A stretch of 64,000 nucleotides of DNA from the NCBI GenBank assembly GCA_025201365.1, contig JAIXMF010000007.1, forward strand, positions 496,001 through 560,000, in the 5' to 3' direction. Of this stretch, positions 1 to 61,500 are shown piece by piece (position 1 is the first letter of the stretch; each line of letters begins with the position of its first letter). Under the pieces are notes generated by a model. The model was not told the DNA's origin. It was given only the letters and a program-made list of their open reading frames with translations, and did no database searches. This DNA comes from Syncephalis plumigaleata (lineage: Eukaryota > Zoopagomycota > Zoopagomycetes > Zoopagales > Piptocephalidaceae). Position numbers and translations under genes: made by a program.

Positions 1-420
1 AGTAACACTTGGACCTGTCTAGATGCTCAAGTAATGGGCCATTTAGCGGAGATATACGCGATACAAAATGATTTAAGCCGTGCGGACGAGTGGTCCAATC
101 GAGGATTAACCCTTTCGAAGGCTGAAACAGGCCAACCAGCATGTGATGCATGTACCGGTATGATCCTCGGTAATATGGCATTGTTGAAAGAGGTGAGCGA
201 GTACAAGTGTATGAAAACGTAGAATGATTTATTTACTTGTTTGTTTGTTTGTTTGTTTGTTTAGGCTAATGGCAATATACAAGAGGCACAGCAACTATTT
301 TCACGCGCTCACAGTTACGCTAAAAAGGCGGGTGATGTTCAAGCCATGATGGAGTTTGGCATGAAAGCACGACAACTACGTAAATCAATGGAAGATAAAT
401 CAACCAATGATTCTAATTAA
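1..420 (+). CDS. C-terminal part of a TPR-repeat protein (partial)
   Basis: The reading frame is open from the first base and enters the window from the left, so the start is missing. Two exons are visible: 1-192 and 265-420, joined by a GTGAGC...TTTAG intron at 193-264 that keeps frame. The translated helical pairs (for example LAEIYAIQNDLSRADEWSNRGL followed later by GNIQEAQQLFSRAHSYAKKAGD, with its A/G/Y spacing) look like tetratricopeptide repeats, which usually act as protein-binding scaffolds. The protein ends in SMEDKSTNDSN. Too little is present to assign a family member or a location in the cell. Confidence 0.6.
237..263 (+). repeat. GTTT tetranucleotide repeat forming the intron polypyrimidine tract
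   Basis: About six GTTT units run directly into the TTTAG acceptor of the TPR-gene intron, so the microsatellite doubles as the T-rich tract before the 3' splice site. Confidence 0.8.
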
Positions 421-19330: not shown

Positions 19331-21601
19331 CCCTCTTGATCTTGATCTTCATTTAGTGAATGCTTTGCGGATGTACTAGGCTCAGGAGGAGAAACGGCAC
19401 TTCGTTGGAATTGTGTTGGAATACCCTTGTCCTTACGAACACTACGAATAATCTGAATAAAATTCAGACATGCAGCCATATCCCGATTCCACAAACGATG
19501 ATCGTATCTTTTAAATTCCGGGTCCTCTTTATAATCCACGTCCAGCTTGCCCTCTCGCTTCTTCTTAGCCTTTATATCTTTCATGGCCTCTTTACAAGGT
19601 TGATGTGTGCATCTAATAAAATAATTAATTAATATGTTATGATAAATAGCAAAGTGTAATAAATTGTACTTACCTTAAAAGACCATGACAGATAATTTTA
19701 TGGCTGTCTTCATGTTGCTTCGACCGAGGATTCGCAACTGGCTTGAATTTCTCGAGGGTGGGATTGTTGCAAGCTGGGCAGCACTTGCTGGTCTTGTGCT
19801 CGTCGATTAGAAAGACTTTAAACCCATGTCGTTTCAAAAGCCTTCTAAAGCCAATACCACGTATGGGCTCGTGGTATTTGGTGTGAGGAGCAGACCAGTT
19901 CCCCATCACAAATGCTGCATCCCTATCGAATTTCTCCCTTAAGTCATCAATCAGCTTTTGATCACTTTGCTGCTTGCTGATGTAGGCCGAAAGCTTCAAC
20001 TTCCTGAAAAGAGGATGTTGGGCAGAATGGGTGGTGGGATCGGTGTTGGGGAGGGTGAGAGTATCTTTATAAAAGTTGGTGAGAACCTCCGAGTGCTGTG
20101 CGCGACACTTCAGATATTTCTTATAATTCACCAGTGATACAGTGTTGCCCTGGGCTTTTGAAAGAGCTGCCTCGGCATCCAGCACCGCCTGATTCCCCTT
20201 CTTGCAGTCATCGCGAATCCTGCGGTATTCCTTCGTCCTCCGCATCTTGTCTTGATGTAGTTTCGTGTACTGATATTTGCGCTTCTCTTCCACCGTCGAG
20301 TTTTCGTGTACACAAAACAGTAAGTTTCTTCTTCCCGGGTCCACCGCCACGCATTTGCCGTCGATTGCCTTGTGATCATCAGCTTTTAATTTACTGATAT
20401 ACGGGAAGGGATCCTTTGCTGATTTCGCTCCCTCTTCCTCGGTGACCTTCTCGATGCCCTTTTTGAGGACCGTGACACCAACGCCATCGGTCTCTATTGA
20501 ATAGAAAAACTCGAGCTTGCCATCCTTTTGATCCTTGAATACCCTTCGATTGAGCTCCACAATTTGTCCCCAATGTTTCTTCTTTTTCTTCTTAAGGGCT
20601 TCCTTCCTCTCTTCATCGGTCCACTTCTTCTCCGCTTCCTTCTGCTGCTCAGTCTTCTTATCCTCATAACTGCGTCCTAATATGTTGTGGCAAAGAATAA
20701 CGGTGTCGATATGGACGTAGCATGGCGAAAACGAACGACGCAGGGGGAAGCAGTTGAAAGCCTTCAAACGGATGCGAGGGAACACGCGCGCAAGCTCAAA
20801 GAACGCCTTAAAGTGCTTCACCGGGTTTTCTTTACAGTCGTAATAAAGGCCGTTTTTACCAAAGTCGTAACGTTTATCGTAAGCATTTAAAACATTTTTG
20901 AATTTGCTGAATGCTCTGGTAAATGCGCGATCCTTTTTGGCCAACGCTTCAATCCCCCCTCGGTGTACCATCGCTAGCTTGAACTCTTTTGCTGGATCAG
21001 TGATTGCTCTGGTTCTCGCGCGAAGCTCATCAGCTTTTACATCCTCGGGCAATTCCTTCTTCATATCTTTTAGCATCTCCTTCCTCATATCCTTTAGCTT
21101 CTCCTTGACATCGAAAAACTTGTTAATAGCGCGCCGAAGAAACTCGCCAAAACGCAATCGGACGTTGTTGGTGTAAGCAACGTACATCTTCGTTGCCTCA
21201 TAACCAGCTGATTGCTGAGCATAGGCTAACTCCGGCGGTTTATAGTCAGTAAGTTTAAGGTAGTCTTTGAGATGCTTCTTGATGAATTTGCGATATCGAA
21301 CCGTTTTTTCTTTGGTCGTGCCTTTTTCCGTACGCTTGATTAAGGAAAGCCATACTTGTTTGAAGAAGTCTTCACGAATATAATTTTCGAACTTAAAGTT
21401 TCGCTTATTATGTTCTTTAAGGAATATATATTTCGCGAAGGCATAAGCATGGAAGGTCGTGGTGTGCACGATGTCTACAAAATCGCGCAAAACATCGTGA
21501 TGCTTCTTCCAACCAATGCCGGAGATAGAAGACTTCACAGCCAGAACTCGTTCACTATCGGCAGAAGTAGACGAGCCATGAGTGCCTGGCTGTGACGCCA
21601 T
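19306..21601 (-). CDS. Fanzor, eukaryotic TnpB-like RNA-guided DNA endonuclease
   Basis: Two exons (21601-19674 and 19612-19306) split by a 61-nt intron (GTAAGT...TTATTAG, falling inside an Arg codon) give 744 residues from MASQPGTHG. An in-frame non-ATG extension upstream was not used. The RuvC-like nuclease is intact: RuvC-I VAVDPGRRNLLF with Asp421; a Glu601 in LIDEHKTSK just before the zinc ribbon; the ribbon CCPAC (Cys608, Cys611) with later CHGLLRC and CTHQPC; and RuvC-III LWNRDMAACLNF with Asp687. The N-terminal half is helical and very Lys-rich, as in other Fanzors. Family members use an RNA guide to cut DNA near a short adjacent motif, probably aiding transposon retention. Looks intact and possibly active. 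Confidence 0.92.
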
Positions 21602-21652
21602 GGATGAAATGGGGTAGTATTTAATGCAATAGCAGTATGTTAAAACGAGCAC

Positions 21653-23310
21653 AGTTATAATATGAAGGGTTAATTAATCTTTTATTTTATTGTAGTATAG
21701 ACGCTTCTTTATATACGTGGCATGTTGGTAGTATTAATTGCATCAATCTATTGTACAGGGGTGAAACGCCCTGCAGACACATACAGGAAGGGTGAATCTA
21801 TTATGGTAAGTAGTATCATTTACAGCGCAGCACAGTAAGACTCGTATCATCTAGTGTCATTGTAGCAATGGTATAACGCCGCTTATAATTTAGCAATCGG
21901 TAAGCATTAATAAGTACTAATGAACTTGTTAACACTTTATTAAATATATTCTTTATTAATAAATGAGCAGAGTCTTGTAATGGGTGTTAATATATTCATT
22001 TGCTTCTACTAATACTACCATTAGCAACTTCCCCTTATCTATTTGTTAACACTTTACTAACTGTTGTTAATGGTTTACCAATCCATTCCAAGTATCCATT
22101 TCATTGTTGCTTCTCTTTCCCCTTTCCCTTTACTTCGTTACCTACATTATTTCCTCCTCCTTTACTTCGTTAACAATTCTAATATATTTTCATTCCTCAT
22201 TATCGACTGATGTATAAATTGTTAATTTTCTTTATTAGTCAATAAAAGCATTCTTTCTCTCTCTTTACCAATATGTGTCTTATTCGTGCTAATCTCTTTT
22301 CCCTTGTCATTCAGTAACACACTTATTTGTGTCAACTGCATTCTAGTTGTTTCTTTTCTTTTCTTTTCTTTTTCTCTCTCTTTAACAACACACGTCTACT
22401 TCCTCTTGACTATATGCTAGTTATTCCTTTTCCTTTTATTTACCTATTTACTTTCCCAGTAATACGCGTCTTCTTCGTGTCATTCACATTTCACTTACTT
22501 CCTCTTTCACTGTAGCATACACATTCCCAATAGCAGCTATTCTGCTATACTATCTCTATGACTTTTATTTATCTCTTTGTTTTTCTCTTGCTCTATCCTA
22601 TCTATATGCTCACTTGTCGTTATTATTACTATACCAATAAGCCTTGTTTATTGTTCGTTCTAGTCCTTTGTTTTCTATCACTGTCCTGCTTATTTATCAA
22701 TGTTTAAGCGTTCACTGTTCTCGTTGTAATATGTATCTTTCACTTTACCACTCTTTTCCGTCATCTGTTTGTATGCCACCATTACGTCATGCTTTTATTT
22801 GTATTTTTATTTGTTTACTGCCATCTACATACTCTATCTACCACTTACAAGCATACACTGCTTCTTCAAATAAACTAGCATACGTGTCATACACCCTTCC
22901 TTGCTCATTCTTTGTTCATTCGTGACAAGTCAGTCAGTCTACTAGTTACTGCTTGTTTGTTACATTGTTTATCTTGTATTCTATTTGTTCACTCGTTGCT
23001 ACTCATATGCACTCAATTGTAAGCATTATCATCATTGTTTATCTACCATGCTAATCAATAGTCACTTGTAAGTACATGACATGGCAATATTCAATTATAC
23101 TAGTACACTTGTATCGTTTACTTATAGAATTGATGATGATAGTTATCACTATCAATAAATGATCCAATACCAAATACTGAATTGTTATTATTATCATGCT
23201 ATATCAATTGACATTTCTATGATGATAATGGTGTTAACAATTGTGTTAATCTGTTTATTAATATATTGCAAATGGTAAGGATAAATGCGCAAATTGGATG
23301 GAAAAGCCTG
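21653..23310. other. Non-coding arm of the Fanzor element
   Basis: About 1.7 kb upstream of the Fanzor ORF. The + strand is pyrimidine-rich and AT-rich, with only short chance ORFs. The last 520 bases (about 22790-23310) are shared with the third element at 55737-56294, and the last 250 with the deleted copy at 31545. It likely holds the Fanzor promoter. Confidence 0.7.
23278..23310. repeat. Terminal inverted repeat, Fanzor 5' side
   Basis: Reads ...GCGCAAATTGGATGG then AAAAGCCTG and is followed by TA. Its reverse complement starts CAGGCTTTTCCATCC, matching the opposite end. Confidence 0.9.
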
Positions 23311-50147: not shown

Positions 50148-51716
50148 TTAGACCGTTTGATTTATATTCCATAGAATAACCTTGTTGTCGATGACTTTCA
50201 TTAGCATATGGGGATTAATGGCCACTGTCTTACTTGCTACATCATCACAGGGAATATGGTAGGTTTTATCTGGATTATGAATATCCCTGACATAGAATCC
50301 ACCATCTGGATGTTGAGTAACCCAGAATCTACTCAATGCAAAACCGACATAAGTCAAATCGGGCGCGATCATCGTATCAACTATGATACTTTTGGATTCC
50401 AGAGAGAGTATTTTTAAATTGCTACCATTAAGGATAATAATACGATTTGGATTCGTAGCAATTTCGGGAAGATGTTCGGTAAAGGTCCCTTCGTAGCAAA
50501 TACTGTCATCACTCGCACAATGAATAAAGAACAAGTTTTGTATATCTTCTTTAGTTTGTTGATTAGTATTTGATAGTTGCGCTGAACTAGATCCATTTGC
50601 TGCATGGTTATTATCATTCTTAGATAAAACCAGTTCGTTGCTAGCAGACGCATATTGCCATACGAGTATCATTTTACCATATAGTAAGAGTCGCGAATGG
50701 CATGCACCATATTTGCGTGCAAGCGATGGAAGTGTCACGTTTATATCTTTATGAATATAGGATATATCATTTGATGTCGCCTTTAGCTTACTCCAGTTAT
50801 AGAATAGCTTGTTATCCTTGTTGCTAAAACCAAAATGAGCAGCATAGATTCTACATTTTTCAGCGTCGGCACATCTAATGACATATGTGTTCCAGTTAGA
50901 AGCACTTTCAATTCGTAATGGCTTTGGACTAGTGAGATTAAAGACACTTATAGGATAAGTCTCGGATGAGGTGGTAGGCTTTTTAAGAAGTAGCCATCGT
51001 CCCACCATGTCTACAATCTGAGTGCCTCCCTTGGTATCCGGCAACAATTTAGCTTTCATCGTTGCTAATTGGTTTCTTTGCCAGTAGACTACTGCATCGC
51101 TACTTGCTTCATTCGATCCAACTCTTTTGGGTCCAGAGAGCACAATGTACCAATTGTTAAGATCACCAGTGATACGCGCGTATGAATCAGCAGAGAAATA
51201 TGTCAGAACATTAGCGATAAATAAAAGTTTAGGCTTGGGATCGTGTTCAACGAGATAAAGCGTGTAAACATCGGTTAGAATAAGTGTACCATAAACATTA
51301 TTAGCAATAATACGCGTATTTAGCTTGTTTGTAACTCCATCAGGTAGGTTATCGGTAATATAAAGCGTATCACTAGTGATGGCTTTTTTCCGCCAATTAT
51401 TTGTTACATTCAGTCGAGCCATATAACGACGTAACCGCCTATAGTTGGACCGTATATCAGGGCATTCGTGCTTCACTGTAGTGGTTTCTTTCTTGAGCAC
51501 ATTATCATGCCAACTTTGCCAGTAATGTGTCTCATTGGTAATGGTGAAATCGCGGCAAAACAATTTCTTCCAATCAATTTCATCAGAGGATACTGAACCT
51601 AGAATACGACAACAAGCTGTAAGAAAGGCTAATAACGTATCGTCGTCCAAATACGCTGTAATACGTAATAATATACGTGCAGGTACATTGTTGATGTGAG
51701 GAGGAAGACAAGTCAT
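50148..51716 (-). CDS. F-box-like protein, single exon
   Basis: One uninterrupted frame of 522 residues. The N-terminus VPARILLRITAYLDDDTLLAFLTACCRILGSVSSDEIDWKKLFCRDF resembles an F-box (P..il..I..yL....l..f...cr......d...W..l...d), which would link to Skp1 in SCF ubiquitin ligases. The remainder repeats strand-rich segments such as NVYGTLILTDVYTLYLVEHD, MVGRWLLLKKPTT, and NKVILWNINQ, which suggests a WD40-like or irregular propeller for substrate binding. Lack of introns is unusual here and may indicate retroposition or rapid gene-family birth. Function beyond the F-box is inferred. Confidence 0.65.
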   Translation of the reverse strand: MTCLPPHINNVPARILLRITAYLDDDTLLAFLTACCRILGSVSSDEIDWKKLFCRDFTITNETHYWQSWHDNVLKKETTTVKHECPDIRSNYRRLRRYMARLNVTNNWRKKAITSDTLYITDNLPDGVTNKLNTRIIANNVYGTLILTDVYTLYLVEHDPKPKLLFIANVLTYFSADSYARITGDLNNWYIVLSGPKRVGSNEASSDAVVYWQRNQLATMKAKLLPDTKGGTQIVDMVGRWLLLKKPTTSSETYPISVFNLTSPKPLRIESASNWNTYVIRCADAEKCRIYAAHFGFSNKDNKLFYNWSKLKATSNDISYIHKDINVTLPSLARKYGACHSRLLLYGKMILVWQYASASNELVLSKNDNNHAANGSSSAQLSNTNQQTKEDIQNLFFIHCASDDSICYEGTFTEHLPEIATNPNRIIILNGSNLKILSLESKSIIVDTMIAPDLTYVGFALSRFWVTQHPDGGFYVRDIHNPDKTYHIPCDDVASKTVAINPHMLMKVIDNKVILWNINQTV

Positions 51717-55736: not shown

Positions 55737-56294
55737 CAGGGTTTCTCCAACCGTTTAACATCTACTTTTATTAATACGTAATCTGCATATTCATTTGTTT
55801 ATTGCCATCTACATACTCTATTTACCTACAAGCATACGCTGCTTCTTCAAATAAACTGGCATACGTGTTCATGCACCCTTCCTTGCTCATTCCTTGCTCA
55901 TTCGTGACAACTCAGTCATTCTACTAGTTACTGCTTGTTTATTACATTGTTTATCGTGTATTCTATTTGTTCACTCGTTGCTACTCCTATGCACTCAATT
56001 GTAAGCATTATCAATATAGTTAATCTATCATACTAGTTTATTACTACTTGTAAGTACATGACATGGCAATATCCAACTATACTAGTACACTTGTATCGTC
56101 TACCTTATAGAATTGATGATGATAGTTATCGCTATCAATGAAGGATCCATTACTAAATTGTTATTGTTATTATTATCATGCTGTATCAATTGGTATTTCT
56201 ATGATAATAATGGTGTTAACAATTGTGTTAATCTATTTATTAATAAACTGCAAATGGTAAAGGATAAATGCGCTCACTGGCTGGAGAAACTCTG
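55737..56294 (-). mobile_element. Third, Fanzor-less member of the element family
   Basis: A 558-bp element with ends CAGGGTTTCTCCAACC and (reverse complement of the other end) CAGAGTTTCTCCAGCC, flanked by TA on the left and CA on the right. Most of its body (about 55790-56275) matches 22795-23290 of the full element in order and at high identity, including the CCATCTACATACTCTAT, AAGCATTATC and GGTGTTAACAATTGTG stretches. It has no Fanzor codons. The TIR core has drifted from CCATCCAATTTGCGC to CCAGCCAGTGAGCGC, so it belongs to a related subfamily. It is non-autonomous. Confidence 0.8.
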
Positions 56295-57017
56295 CAATAA
56301 CGACTATCGCTTACTAGTATCTATCAAATTAGCAAAGTAGCAATGATTCATATGAGTATTACTGATAGATTAGCGTGGTCACATGTACGCATTGTAGGGC
56401 AAACCATTGCTTGCATGGCAAATTCCCATTACAGCATGGCTAGTATAGGCGGGGATGGCATGCTCGCAAAGGTTGTGTACACGCATTTCAAAGGTGGCAA
56501 TTCAAAGAATGACTGTTTTCCCTAACGTCATCCACCCAAGATTTCTCAAACTAAACGTTGACAGGCGTACAAGTGTTTGCTCGCCAGTTGCCTGTCATGA
56601 TAGCAATTATAGTATTACTTTTCTATATTCAATAAATCAGCATTATGATGATAGTATAATGATATCTAGCTGTATATTTCAATATTGCCTAGCTTCATCG
56701 CTACACGTATCTCAATACAAATGCCGCATTGTTTGTTAGCAATCATGTCTAAATGATGAGCCACGAAGACCAAGGATTGACCCAGTAATTTAGGCCTTTG
56801 TGGCCCGGGAGTTCTTGCCCATTAGTTTTGACGGTGGGAATAGCCGAACATACCTTAAGCTTTAAATAGTCCCATTCAACATGTAGCTTTAGTCAACTTA
56901 CTCGTACATTTAGCATTTATCTTCTTTCTTGCATATCAGCAATCTTTCATTATCTTTACTGCATTCTGATTCTTCTCTTTCTCTTAGCATTTTCATTGTT
57001 GTTATCATAGCATTACC
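56295..57017. promoter_or_regulatory. Promoter region of the micro-exon gene
   Basis: About 720 bp with no supported gene. A CTTTAAATAG stretch near 56860 could be a TATA-like element about 155 bp before the start. The leader is pyrimidine-rich (TTCTTCTCTTTCTCTTAG near 56970-56987), which might end a 5'-UTR intron. Confidence 0.4.
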
Positions 57018-58033
57018 ATGAAGTTCTCCACTGCCAGCATTGTTGCATATGTCGCCGTCGTCGCCGTCGTCCTAGCCGGTACCACTACCGTTGAGGCAAA
57101 GCCAATACTGAATCGTCGAGGTGTGTGACTACAATAACTTGTTCATCAATCCTGTTTACAATGTAATCTAACTCACCTAATAACCTCTATTTATTAACTA
57201 ATAGAACGTAAGCCATACATAGATATGTAGTTGACGTTGTAATAGACCTCTTTGCTAATATACAATTATTGCTCTTATCATAATGGATATCATCCAATCG
57301 ATAGCTCGTAAGTAGAGTGGGCTCGATGAATAGACAAGAAAACATTAACGATTTACCTTTATTGTACACCCCATTGATCCTACTCGAGTATAGTCAGTAA
57401 GTGACACTGCATCCAACTTGCTCTATCTGGATTGTACTAAATGACCACATCCTACTTGGTGATACAAATGGTATTAATAGGATTTTGTAAGTTCCTTAGA
57501 ATGCATATACACATCTAAATTTATTAACGTTGTGTGAATAGCTTGTAAGTGATACAGTAGCTATTGCAATGTATACGTTTAGTAATTAATATCCGTTGCC
57601 TATATCGTTACTTCATCAACAGTATGTAAGTATTCCTATGGCATTTGGCATTCCTATACTAATACTTTATCAACTATTACGCATCTACTTCATACTAGTC
57701 GGTAAGTGATAATAATAGCTGATAGCTTGTCTAATTCACTAACAATACAACATTCTTTCATTTATTGCTAATTATCTCGAGTATAGGTCGTAAGTGTTTA
57801 TACCAAGTGATTGCCTTAATACTAATCCTTCTCTTCATTATCACGCTTATCATCCGATAATCATTAGGCAGTAAGTTGCAATGTTATAGCGGTACTGTTA
57901 TTGCCAGACATACTAACAATACATTATTATATTCCTATACCTAACAGTATGTGAGTATCAATGTAGCGCATATTATGTTACACGTACACTAACAAGCTAG
58001 TCCATTGTTTATTGTATGTTTGTTTCGATAGAA
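57018..58033 (+). CDS. Secreted peptide precursor assembled from consecutive 3-nt micro-exons
   Basis: Exon 1 (57018-57120, 103 nt) encodes MKFSTASIVAYVAVVAVVLA plus GTTTVEAKPILNRR and one extra base. The signal peptide is strong and Arg-Arg is a Kex2-type site. Ten micro-exons follow: AAC 57205-57207, CTC 57305-57307, TCA 57394-57396, GATTTT 57481-57486, CTT 57542-57544, TAT 57623-57625, TCG 57699-57701, GTC 57787-57789, GCA 57868-57870, TAT 57948-57950. The last exon starts at 58032 with AAAG. Every intron (55-97 nt) starts GTAAGT, GTAAGC, GTGAGT or GTGTGT, ends AG, and most have CTAAC/CTAAT/TTAAC upstream of the acceptor. Splicing all gives EPLRFSLFGRI after the Arg pair, and a stop from T + AA. 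Total 45 residues. The family is unknown. Confidence 0.85.
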
Positions 58034-58562
58034 AGGTATTTGCCCATCAATTAATAGCCACACATTAAACTAATAGCTCATGCATTACTTTTAGGAATCA
58101 AGATTATTAACGTAGCAAGCTTCGATCGATTAGAAGGAGGGAAATATTTGACACATACCGCCACTTGGCGACCATTTTCCACTTCATCGATGCCGTGTAT
58201 ATCAAGTTTTCCATTGTGACCAAATAAACCAGCTGCTTCTATAAGCTTGTCATTCATTAATAAACACATTGTATTGATTGTATCTCAAATGATTGATAAA
58301 GCCAATGTGTATATGTGTATATTGAAAACAGACAATGTTATTTTTATTTATAAATTACTAAGACAAATGGTTAAAGTATAGTTATCGCATAGTCTGACAC
58401 CTTGCTTTTGTATAGACAAGATAGTGGTCATTGCGTATATGTAAATGTAGATGAAAATGTAGATGTAGATGGAATGGGCTGCTTAAAAATAAAAGTAGAG
58501 GAAGGGAAAGGAAAGGAAAGGAGGAGGTATGTAAACTGAAATAATACTGAAACAGGTAAATA
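58034..58562. other. Region between the micro-exon gene and RasGEF 2
   Basis: About 530 bp. It should contain the 3' UTR of the micro-exon gene, possibly with another intron (GTATTT at 58036 to a TAG near 58073 or 58094). A 63-codon minus-strand ORF at 58078-58269 (containing KLDIHGIDEVENGRQVAVCV) has a coding look but no family I recognise, and was left uncalled. Confidence 0.4.
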
Positions 58563-61500
58563 TTAAACGGCATTCTTTTCACGATTTTTGTTCAAATTAT
58601 GTGCACGTCTTCCTAACTTATCATGGCCACGTAGTTCCGCGAGTGTTAACGAGCAGTAAGCATCGAATGTGGCAACAGCGGTGGGATTCGATGGATTGTC
58701 CGCTCCGGCGCCGTTTGGCCCTAATTGAACGCGACTACGCGGTGCATTCCGATTAAGTGACGAGGCGCGTGCGCGTGGTGTCACATCAGTTTCATTCGAG
58801 ACGTTCTCATTGCTGGTATTCTCTGGTCCCGCACTAGAGCAATAACGTAAAGTAATGATGTCAATAATGTGCACATCGTTATATGACGTAGACATTGCAT
58901 TTTGTACTTACTTTCGTTGTTCCAATCGCAAGCTGGCAAAGTAGAGCTTCTCGGGATCGCCGTTCGTTTCAGAGTTCTCTAGCAAGCGGCCTAAAAAGCT
59001 TTGCAATCTTGGTAGCGGCTGCGTTTGAAATGGCGACGATTGAAAGCGTTCAATTTCCATGATAAGTCGCATACTTTGCAAGTATTTGTGGAATGGAATA
59101 CGCGGCTCATTCGACATCGGTTCAGGTGATGTTGCGCCGTTGTCCATGGTGGGTCGACGTACCGGAATAGTCGGTGAGCTAGCATCATCGATAAAGGTCA
59201 AATCGCGTAGATATAAACCTATCAACAAGTAGTTAGTACATACACATACATATACATGTAGAGCAATAATGATTAGTTTACCTAAGAATGGAATACAAGG
59301 CAGTGCTATCTCACGTAGTGTTTGTCGATAGGTGGCACAGTTTCGACGATGATCAAAAACATCACGCAAATGGGTGAGTATTGCAATGTTACGTTTAGAA
59401 ATCAGCTATTTGATAATGATATATACATATACGTATATACATATTGGTTAGCAAGTATTACAATAAATAGTTATTCATCGTGGTAAACTCACCTTCCATG
59501 TGCGAGATAGTCGTTCCAATACCGAGGAATCCAATGCTGTGATAATGGCAAGAACCGCGTCTAGATTACCCAATTTGAAACAGGCATCGGCCAATTTGAT
59601 GAAATAACGTAGAATCTCTGCACGTCGCTTAAGATCCGCCTCAAATATAATAGTCTCCGTAACCCATATTGTCAACTAGATGTAACATTATTGTTATTGT
59701 TAATTACAACTCATTGAACTGAACTGGTGTACTCATCAAATGATCGCTTACCTGACGTGTAAATGCCACTACCGCTTTGACGTTAGGCGAAATAGTGTCG
59801 TCTTTCTTCGAGAATGCTTGACCGATAAGCTCGTGTGGTTCAATAAGTACGAACAAGTCCCATTCCATCAGTGTTATCTGGTTGGCCAACTCGGTTGGTT
59901 CAATGTCGAATAGCGTTAGAATACCGCTGAGTGGTGCAGCCACCGCACTTTGATGATCGAGATTAATTGAACGACGATTGCCATCGGCGGCAGAAGAGGG
60001 ATTGATCGTCCATATTGGTCGTGGTGATATGGGTCCTCCATGTCGAGTGCGTTTAACCTATACAGATATGTATATAATAAAGCATAAATGAATTAGTTAA
60101 CATTGAATGAATAAATAAATGAATAAATATATCTGTATCTATACCTTTTCTTTCATGGCAGCTAGTAGTCGTTTTGCTAGAAGCGGTGACATATGCATTA
60201 CTGGGCCGGCTACAAATCGTTTTAAATCCCTTAGACAAACTGTATCCTGCTTAGCATCCCAGTAGGATTCAAGCCATAATTTAACGATATTAAATACGCT
60301 ATTATCCGCTAAATGTTAGTAATCATTCATCTTGTTCTGTATATGTATACGTGTGTATTCTTACCGTAGACGTACTGGTACAAGTTTCTTATCGAGCCAT
60401 GTCTTGCATTCCTCGTTGTTTAGATTAGAGGGTGGCTTAAGCGCATAGCGTAGATACAACAACTGTGCGAACTCCTCCGGCTTACAAAATAATCGAAAAC
60501 AAGTCAGGAATGTTCGAGTGAATAGGGCGTCGGCAATACTGTCGTGTGGCGTCAACTGATCGACTAGTGCGCGTAATGTTCCCGATGAGACTGTTCCCTC
60601 CATGTTGTACATAAGATCCATGGGCGTGTGCTCATTCTTAAGGAACCACGGAGTGAACGGTTGTTCTGCGGCTGCCTTGGCCACTGCATGCTCGTCTACA
60701 CCAAAGAACTTTGACGCCTTACGTCGATAGGGCATTGGCTGTGGAGTTGCCGCCGCTATCGTATCATCCTTGAACACATCCGGTGAATTGAGATTGACTG
60801 GCGGTGTCTGTGGACTGAGACCACCACCACCACCACCACTACCCTGAGCTAATGGAGCCGGTGTTAGATTTGGCGTGCATCCCGGTTGAATCATCTCTTC
60901 AAACGTAGCAGCAGCCCGTGTTGCTTCACCCGGTGTTATATCCTCTACCCTTGGTATAGGAGATAAGAATGACTCTGGATCATTGCTATGCTCCTCTGCC
61001 ATCACATCATCCGCTATACTATCCGCCATAGAAGTGGTGAACATACTCAAGTCAAGTACAGGCGTTGAAATAAACTCTAAATCCGTATTAATAGCACTTG
61101 GTATGTGTGCATGACGTGATGCTCGTTTTGCGGTCTTTTCAGTTGAACTAACAAGCGTGGTTGCTGCTGCTGCTGCTACTGTAGTAGTTGTAGTAGTTGT
61201 AGTAGTGTCTTCTGTAGCATCTACCAATGGCATAGATGGCATCGGCGGTAGAACACCAAATTTATTCGATGATAGTATTTGCGCACCAAATGGTTGCATA
61301 GTCACTGATTTTCTAGATGGCACGAGTACAAATGTATCGCTACCAAACTTTGATTTATGTTTATCTTCCGCTGTAGTGGAATCGCTATTATTGTTATTGC
61401 TGTTGTCGTCGTTATCATAGATTTGAGTAAATGACAAGTTACTGTTAGTGTTGCTACTTTGTTCATGCGTAGCAGTAGCAGTAGCAGTATTATCACGAAA

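Follow-up and report, generated by a model that had tools for sequence, protein, structure and literature searches.

Kex2-processed repeat peptide precursors of fungi combine a signal peptide and dibasic sites with ordinary exons, and the micro-exon gene arrays of schistosomes, by the account given in the original prediction for the gene treated below, are composed of exons of 6 nt and upwards. In the schistosome micro-exon genes (MEGs), most of the coding region is made up of very small symmetrical exons, and the products are secreted or gland-linked and associated with the host interface (PMC4350168). Exons of a single nucleotide have been reported in Arabidopsis APC11 (PMC4674806) and in Fusarium CYP621A, where an intronless relative was used as evidence (PMC12940212). 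Fungal introner-like elements are similar spliceosomal introns that have multiplied within one genome (PMC4457414).

Here we analyse a stretch of 64,000 nucleotides (hereafter, the window) of the genome of Syncephalis plumigaleata (order Zoopagales), which contains a gene predicted to carry a chain of one-codon exons. The hosts of Syncephalis are Mucorales. The genus itself has been characterized as mycoparasitic (PMC10386755). With a probability of about 0.9, judging from the sequence, the window gene is a diverged member of a large S. plumigaleata family of secreted-peptide genes with one-codon exons. Its members recall Kex2-processed precursors in having a signal-peptide-like stretch and a dibasic site, and one of them (L011) has repeated dibasic-flanked segments; in the window gene, unlike the repeat precursors, there is a single dibasic site and a single peptide. 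As in the schistosome MEGs, most of the coding sequence lies in tiny symmetrical exons (471 of 560 measure 3 nt here), and by a loose MEG definition, as far as the cited account gives one, family members would be micro-exon genes and would work like them, with exon 1 of the main family being of ordinary size when set beside the tiny exons of that definition (PMC4350168). They differ from MEGs in having mostly exactly one codon per exon, up to 70 introns and a codon-plus-intron unit repeated in tandem, and we liken the two by architecture alone. APC11 and CYP621A share with this family that exons of 1-3 nt can be spliced, and the Fusarium case also the evidence from intronless relatives; in the accounts cited, however, a single tiny exon sits in an ordinary gene, whereas here whole genes consist of one-codon exons (PMC4674806, PMC12940212). 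Similar spliceosomal introns have likewise multiplied within one genome in the case of introner-like elements, but these, according to the cited text, were gained in different genes (PMC4457414); the introns described here follow one another in tandem within a single gene family, separated by exons of exactly 3 nt. Among the literature matches listed, all open-licence papers, none described one-codon exon arrays or micro-exons of Syncephalis. The tandem repetition of one codon plus one intron is part of no kind known to us or found in this literature.

Structure and kinship of the window gene

The original prediction proposed one signal-peptide exon followed by nine 3-nt exons and one 6-nt exon, a structure that we recovered both by direct reading (positions 56000-59500) and with a splice parse blind to the reading frame (Table 1). 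The ten units recur as described, with start-to-start distances of 61-100 nt instead of the 58-100 nt first given. The same peptide also emerged from the splice parse: the predicted spliced product reads MKFSTASIVAYVAVVAVVLAGTTTVEAKPILNRR-EPLRFSLFGRI, open from the signal peptide through Arg-Arg to a stop codon (T|AA) that forms, as proposed, only when the T of the last micro-exon meets the AA of the final coding exon. Exon 1 comprises 34 codons plus 1 nt, and its design and phase-1 end match those of exon 1 in the rest of the family; the gene has no phase-setting exon and stays in phase 1 throughout. The 11 coding introns measure 55-97 nt and most of them have the branch sites announced (CTAAC/CTAAT in seven, TTAAC/TTAAT or CTAAA in the remaining four).

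Table 1. Coordinates of the window gene, its second copy and the longest array (window positions unless a contig is named)
Feature	Position	Strand	Remarks
Exon 1	57018..57120	+	ATG, signal-peptide-like stretch, Arg-Arg, first base G of next codon
Intron 1	57121..57204	+	Donor GTGTGT; GTATGT in second copy (L060)
Micro-exon AAC	57205..57207	+	Direct reading and frame-blind splice parse
Micro-exon CTC	57305..57307	+	Direct reading and frame-blind splice parse
Micro-exon TCA	57394..57396	+	Direct reading and frame-blind splice parse
Micro-exon GATTTT (6 nt)	57481..57486	+	Direct reading and frame-blind splice parse
Micro-exon CTT	57542..57544	+	Direct reading and frame-blind splice parse
Micro-exon TAT (first)	57623..57625	+	Direct reading and frame-blind splice parse
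Micro-exon TCG	57699..57701	+	Direct reading and frame-blind splice parse
Micro-exon GTC	57787..57789	+	Direct reading and frame-blind splice parse
Micro-exon GCA	57868..57870	+	Direct reading and frame-blind splice parse
Micro-exon TAT (second)	57948..57950	+	Final T opens stop codon T|AA
Last coding exon AAAG	58032..58035	+	AA closes stop codon
Probable 3'-UTR intron (predicted)	58036..58094	+	GTATTT..ACTAAT..TTTTAG
L060, second copy of window gene	C375:28735-28836		Exon-1 peptide 97% identical
L004	C1:1409500-1418500	-	70 introns (71 with laxer donor cut-off)

Within the window, AG-NNN-GTRAGT units form chains of up to eight, whereas 300 first-order Markov resamples never exceed two. From these resamples, together with a genome-wide control using the reversed pattern (see below), we reject a chance chain of motifs. 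The second copy of the gene, L060, matches it at all micro-exon positions (0 of 37 different) and at most intron positions (17 of 828 different); the downstream part is near-identical and the upstream flank differs at 66 of 1491 positions. L060 is perhaps the other haplotype of the window locus. These differences are too few for L060 to serve as a strong test of the window gene or for selection to be measured. When the spliced window peptide was used to look for homologues, one candidate came up, none at E<=1, and no annotated protein matched. The window introns are barely like those of the family (similarity 0.617, against 0.588 for shuffled introns), so unit duplication is not visible in this gene, and we discarded unit similarity as a visible origin of its array, the window introns not being alike. 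That the window gene in particular is truly spliced appears likely; this estimate draws on both the pattern of the gene itself and its relationship to the family.

Abundance and anatomy of the family

Three AG-NNN-GTRAGT units in a row occur at 1500 places in the 32.6 Mb genome (807 forward, 693 reverse), compared with 15 for the reversed pattern. Grouped by hand, roughly the first hundred of these places, among the matches listed, correspond to 13 arrays, from which we extrapolate to roughly 200 arrays in the genome. A search with one exon-1 peptide as query scored 150 matches among 170 candidates, a number that takes in intronless and near-allelic duplicate copies. The common 3'-UTR exon stands directly after AG at 86 exact places (control, 0); allowing up to three mismatches yields 149 places (control, 0), but we prefer the exact count because the looser one may include intronless copies. 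The same pattern with 4-nt exons gave 51 matches (reversed control, 0), all but one of which were, by eye, other purine-rich repeats unlike these introns. Such degenerate purine-rich repeats (GTGAGTA types), encountered through this control pattern, lie on contigs C1, C2, C46, C57, C316 and further ones.

In the main family, exon 1 carries a signal-peptide-like stretch, mostly with Arg-Arg at its end, and leaves phase 1; predicted from the letters alone, it fits a signal peptide followed by a dibasic site (MKFS.. to RR). One to several short exons come next, then mostly a 5-nt (or 2-nt) exon that sets phase 0, and then a run of one-codon exons, 2 to 35 of them across 33 parsed arrays; in many of these arrays the retrieved DNA ends before the array does. 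The repeating unit is thus one codon plus an intron of ~80 nt, in tandem, and the introns are ~69-70% identical to one another within and between arrays. Where seen, the last micro-exon usually takes the form XXX-TAA-GCR, after which come an intron and the common 3'UTR; in the window gene, too, an intron probably follows the stop exon. The best-supported interpretation of the window gene remains that of the original prediction, a secreted peptide of a fungus encoded in consecutive 3-nt exons, but the wording was too narrow on three points: there is a large family and not a single odd gene; arrays elsewhere in the genome reach 70 introns; and most arrays have one whole codon per exon in phase 0, whereas the window gene is in phase 1.

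Individual arrays vary on this theme. L013 has 40 introns and a predicted product that reads MKFSAVIAIAVAVVALTSQGAVEAKRKRTSHAGKTPVCGTWLTWDPARKMCCDQRDLLLETDRIACAKPIAWS; no contiguous copy of this peptide was found in a search run without a known-match control. Ahead of its phase-setting exon, L034 carries a series of five 9-nt exons, of which two have the same sequence (GACCACGCC); these appear to be three-codon units in place of one-codon units. In L011, exon 1 (from ~3660 of the reverse-complemented locus) contains repeated dibasic-flanked segments, RRDHVPPAAFRSLE and variants, with a micro-exon array after it, and looks like a Kex2-processed repeat precursor. Peptides of L001, L013, L017, L026 and L027 contain Cys, and those of L005 and L007 are rich in Gly/Ala/Lys. 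Three spliced family peptides, the L004 product and the annotated protein P0014 matched no Pfam family above cut-off; the partial L017 peptide approached CBM_14 (PF01607) with E 0.014 and 16 bits, below the cut-off of 22.1.

A profile search for the family matched 29 proteins, none of them named as MEG. Eight of the 29 come from JGI or ENA contigs, including four (P0024-P0027) that continue beyond Arg-Arg-Gly with residues similar to those that translation into intron 1 would give here, suggesting that relatives also possess this donor. The counterpart of L044 in the NCBI annotation, model BDF22DRAFT_698013 (P0003), gives RRG-P-Q-E-W-N-E-F and then enters an intron; it seems to fit a 2-nt exon GT followed by CCT, CAA, GAA, TGG, AAT, GAG and TTT, with some predicted exons omitted.

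The proportion of 3-nt exons given above refers to exons after exon 1 in a frame-blind parse of 33 arrays, which includes near-allelic copies and leaves the window gene (L014) out of the family counts; an earlier parse of 32 arrays, window gene included, gave 452 of 540. The re-parse had a higher exon-length cap and a changed tie between the overlapping donors GTAC and GTAT; both changes were made after L054 (see below) had been seen and affect L008, L012 and L031, the TTG-TCGAAC-GCC-GTG-CTC chain of L008 and L012 having been read earlier by plain pattern. Three duplicates were dropped before counting (L015 of L001, L038 of L005, L043 of L007), and L004, L009, L011, L030, L032, L033 and L042 were dropped from the earlier parse for having another exon 1 or being intronless or misplaced.

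With these definitions, the strict units of 41 loci contain no stop in 314 triplets, where 7.4 would be expected from position-specific composition, and a wider set contains none among 417 3-nt exons, of which 321 have T or C as third base. Of 33 arrays, 29 are in phase 0 after the last odd-length exon, mostly of 5 nt (first parse, 27 of 31), a count that uses the first odd exon for L001 and L036; taking the first odd-length exon throughout, the looser count is 32 of 33. The exceptions are L003 and L006, with lesions in exon 1, and L008 and L031, in both of which an alternative 24-nt exon is visible that would restore the phase. Eleven of the 15 complete arrays were open to their terminal stop in the first parse, the others being L001 (one 2-nt unit), L003 and L006 (exon-1 lesions) and L012; after the re-parse L012 is open and L001, L003 and L006 are still not. 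In the partial array L019 an in-frame TAG begins a 6-nt exon and is avoidable only by an acceptor 3 nt downstream; this TAG could itself be the acceptor end. The frame set by exon 1 has 10 stops in 629 codons (seven in L012 in the first parse, two in L006 and the window gene's own stop), against 3 and 56 in the other two frames; one wrong frame being about as open, openness separates the right frame from only one other.

Across 390 units, information is lowest around the splice sites at the three codon positions (0.05, 0.08 and 0.27 bits), compared with 2.0 and 2.0 bits for AG, 2.0 and 1.93 for GT and ~0.45 for the least conserved intron positions near the donor, which is GTAAGT in 332 units. 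A branch-like motif, laxly defined and counted without a control, was found in 378. Because the donors are near consensus inside the intron, the three exonic bases are left free for coding. Fungal introns of ~80 nt are thought to be recognized across the intron, so exon size need not limit recognition, and a free codon beside a strong intronic donor fits splicing by one codon at a time. The pre-mRNA would then be spliced by intron definition, intron by intron, each step lengthening the exon by one codon, in an order that we infer. Exon 1 would supply the signal-peptide-like stretch and a dibasic, Kex2-type site, the 3-nt exons the mature peptide, and the stop would lie on or across the last micro-exon; the peptide would be secreted and cleaved after Arg-Arg. 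Most likely, the products are secreted peptides that are built up, and made diverse, one codon at a time, their processing, translation and function being inferred; given their secreted type and diversity, one may guess that they act where the parasite meets its host.

Joined and intronless relatives

Several loci carry in contiguous form what the arrays carry in pieces. The stop exon is joined directly to the 3'UTR at 35 places (up to two mismatches; control, 0), one of which, C1:96951, has a sequence compatible with an intron end as well, and exon 1 is joined straight onto the first micro-exons (CGTCGTGCTCCTSAA) at six (control, 0). Twelve intronless loci reached through the stop-to-UTR junctions were read (L045-L056); five have a clean frame from ATG to stop (L045, L046, L050, L052 and L053), as has L033, found in the exon-1 peptide search, and the remaining ones have lesions or no ATG at the expected place. 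L054 carries the 22-nt run GCTGTTGTCGAACGCCGTGCTC, in which the final base of exon 1 is followed directly by six joined micro-exons; these correspond exactly to those predicted in L008 and L012, and L031 has the first five as well. Found in this one of 62 loci, the run is out of frame with the ATG of L054. More generally, 1411 distinct 15-mers spanning at least three predicted junctions gave 19 contiguous matches in the DNA examined, against two from 1638 with shuffled exon order; nine of the 19 are the L054 run, three are CAT-rich, and L030/L049 is one place counted twice. An upstream TATA motif is kept in at least three of 11 intronless copies (13 of 21 intron-bearing ones), and on that ground we reject 'retrocopies' as a blanket name for these relatives, which may be intron-loss or pre-intron forms.

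The longest array, L004, which offers the most telling of these cases, has a median intron of 80 nt, a product of ~110 aa, a different exon 1 and the family 3'UTR, and its stop codon is also formed across the last intron. Its intronless paralogue L057 lies on another contig (C318). The micro-exon part of L004 alone scores 125 in alignment with L057; 200 shuffles of the exon order averaged 34.4 and did not exceed 55, and windows shifted by 1-12 nt scored 22-88. The spliced L004 product also matches P0014, which contains the reading frame of L057, by BLASTP (E 3e-12, 34% identity). L004 and L057 represent a second protein family without evident signal peptide that has its 3'UTR in common with the main family.

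These joined forms bear on what the arrays are. Satellite-like tandem repeats in which AG-NNN-GTAAGT recurs by accident, with no genes involved, might look like the main family, whose ~80-nt introns show the identity of a diverged satellite. This is exceedingly improbable: the triplets are free of stops and biased at the third base, a signal-peptide exon lies upstream and a common 3'UTR exon follows, joined relatives exist (the stop-to-UTR junctions, L004/L057 and the L054 run), and the window array has a like design without intron similarity. On the L004/L057 alignment and the stop-free triplets, we reject a pure satellite.

Also very unlikely is a scheme in which the micro-exons serve as recursive splicing steps, or most of them are skipped, so that exon 1 ends up next to the last exon and the triplets are left untranslated. 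The P0003 model, as we read it, would agree with such skipping in omitting some predicted exons. Recursive splice sites are zero-length, with AG directly before GT, whereas three bases separate AG and GT in these units; the intronless relatives contain the micro-exons; and the codon differences in the close pairs L016/L018 and L026/L035 are five synonymous and one nonsynonymous. Real splicing of the family arrays, by contrast, we consider very probable from the patterns in the DNA.

Evolution of the codon-plus-intron units

In the six closest of ten pairs of arrays, the donor hexamers differ at 0/102, 0/102, 4/108, 0/72, 0/90 and 0/108 positions and the intron interiors by 3-14%. The micro-exons of the same pairs differ by 1.5, 7.5, 3.1, 7.3, 18.9 and 2.8% (the 18.9%, in L005/L039, being due to shifted units) and are therefore not clearly slower than the introns. 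In more distant pairs (L020 against L016 and L018), micro-exons change faster, differing by 34-40% and introns by 16-18%. Between L024 and L025, a single codon has had all three of its bases replaced. Where the flanking introns are similar, unit pairs have eight synonymous and 48 nonsynonymous codon changes, which is not purifying selection. These many nonsynonymous changes, together with the exon-1 lesions of L003 and L006, the frame shift of L001 and the in-frame TAG of L019, are what one would see if the family were mainly dead, that is, composed of pseudogenes with drifting micro-exons. We regard this as highly improbable, given that in close pairs the splice donors have changed far less than the intron interiors, that none of the 417 triplets is a stop and that most complete arrays were open already in the first parse.

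Whole units come and go. L005 differs from the near-identical L039 by entire codon-plus-intron units, two adjacent introns of L005 are 100% identical, and an AAG-GCC alternation repeats in L007. These three observations argue against an origin of the introns, around real exons, from introner-like insertions between the codons of a once intronless gene with no duplication of units. Such an origin agrees with the intronless relatives, which have the same signal peptide, 5' leader and 3'UTR, and introner-like elements do occur in fungi (PMC4457414); random insertion, however, would produce varied exon lengths, whereas the great majority are exactly 3 nt long, and we hold this explanation to be rather unlikely. 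In the main family, we favour instead a [codon + intron] unit that would multiply in tandem and be copied between arrays.

Codons also change in a particular way. In 138 pairs of units, which are not independent of one another, the introns on both sides reach at least 85% identity; the codon differs in 56 of these pairs, and 43 of the 56 have two or three of the three bases changed. Pairs with different codons diverge by 0.204 at positions +7..16 after the donor and by 0.086 further on, pairs with the same codon by 0.076 and 0.056. This pattern fits the replacement of short cassettes and not point mutation. Since every exon of a run is one codon in one phase, the gain, loss, swap or skipping of a unit alters one amino acid without a frameshift, and the similar introns may act as recombination handles for swaps that would be frame-safe both in the DNA and through alternative splicing. 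We tentatively suggest, with somewhat less than even confidence, that the codon-plus-intron unit is a genetic device that diversifies secreted peptides by one amino acid at a time.

If transcripts confirm these structures, minimal exon size would be the building rule of a gene family, with 70-71 introns per ~110 codons in the extreme case. Such genes would offer a test of how the spliceosome copes when exons are too small to be recognized as exons, and they would amount to exon shuffling at the level of single codons. They would also illustrate how gene prediction can miss or mangle secreted peptides: the window peptide matched no annotated protein and the model at L044 enters an intron. Elsewhere in the window, a protein encoded at 50148-51713 (minus strand) has one outside match, which carries the name S. 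plumigaleata and shares 80% identity over 58% of its length. At 19670-21673 (minus strand), a 667-aa open frame has a weak match to a Cas12f1-like/TnpB-type domain (E 0.0067; the 17 bits fall short of the 26.3 cut-off). It possibly encodes a Fanzor-type protein.
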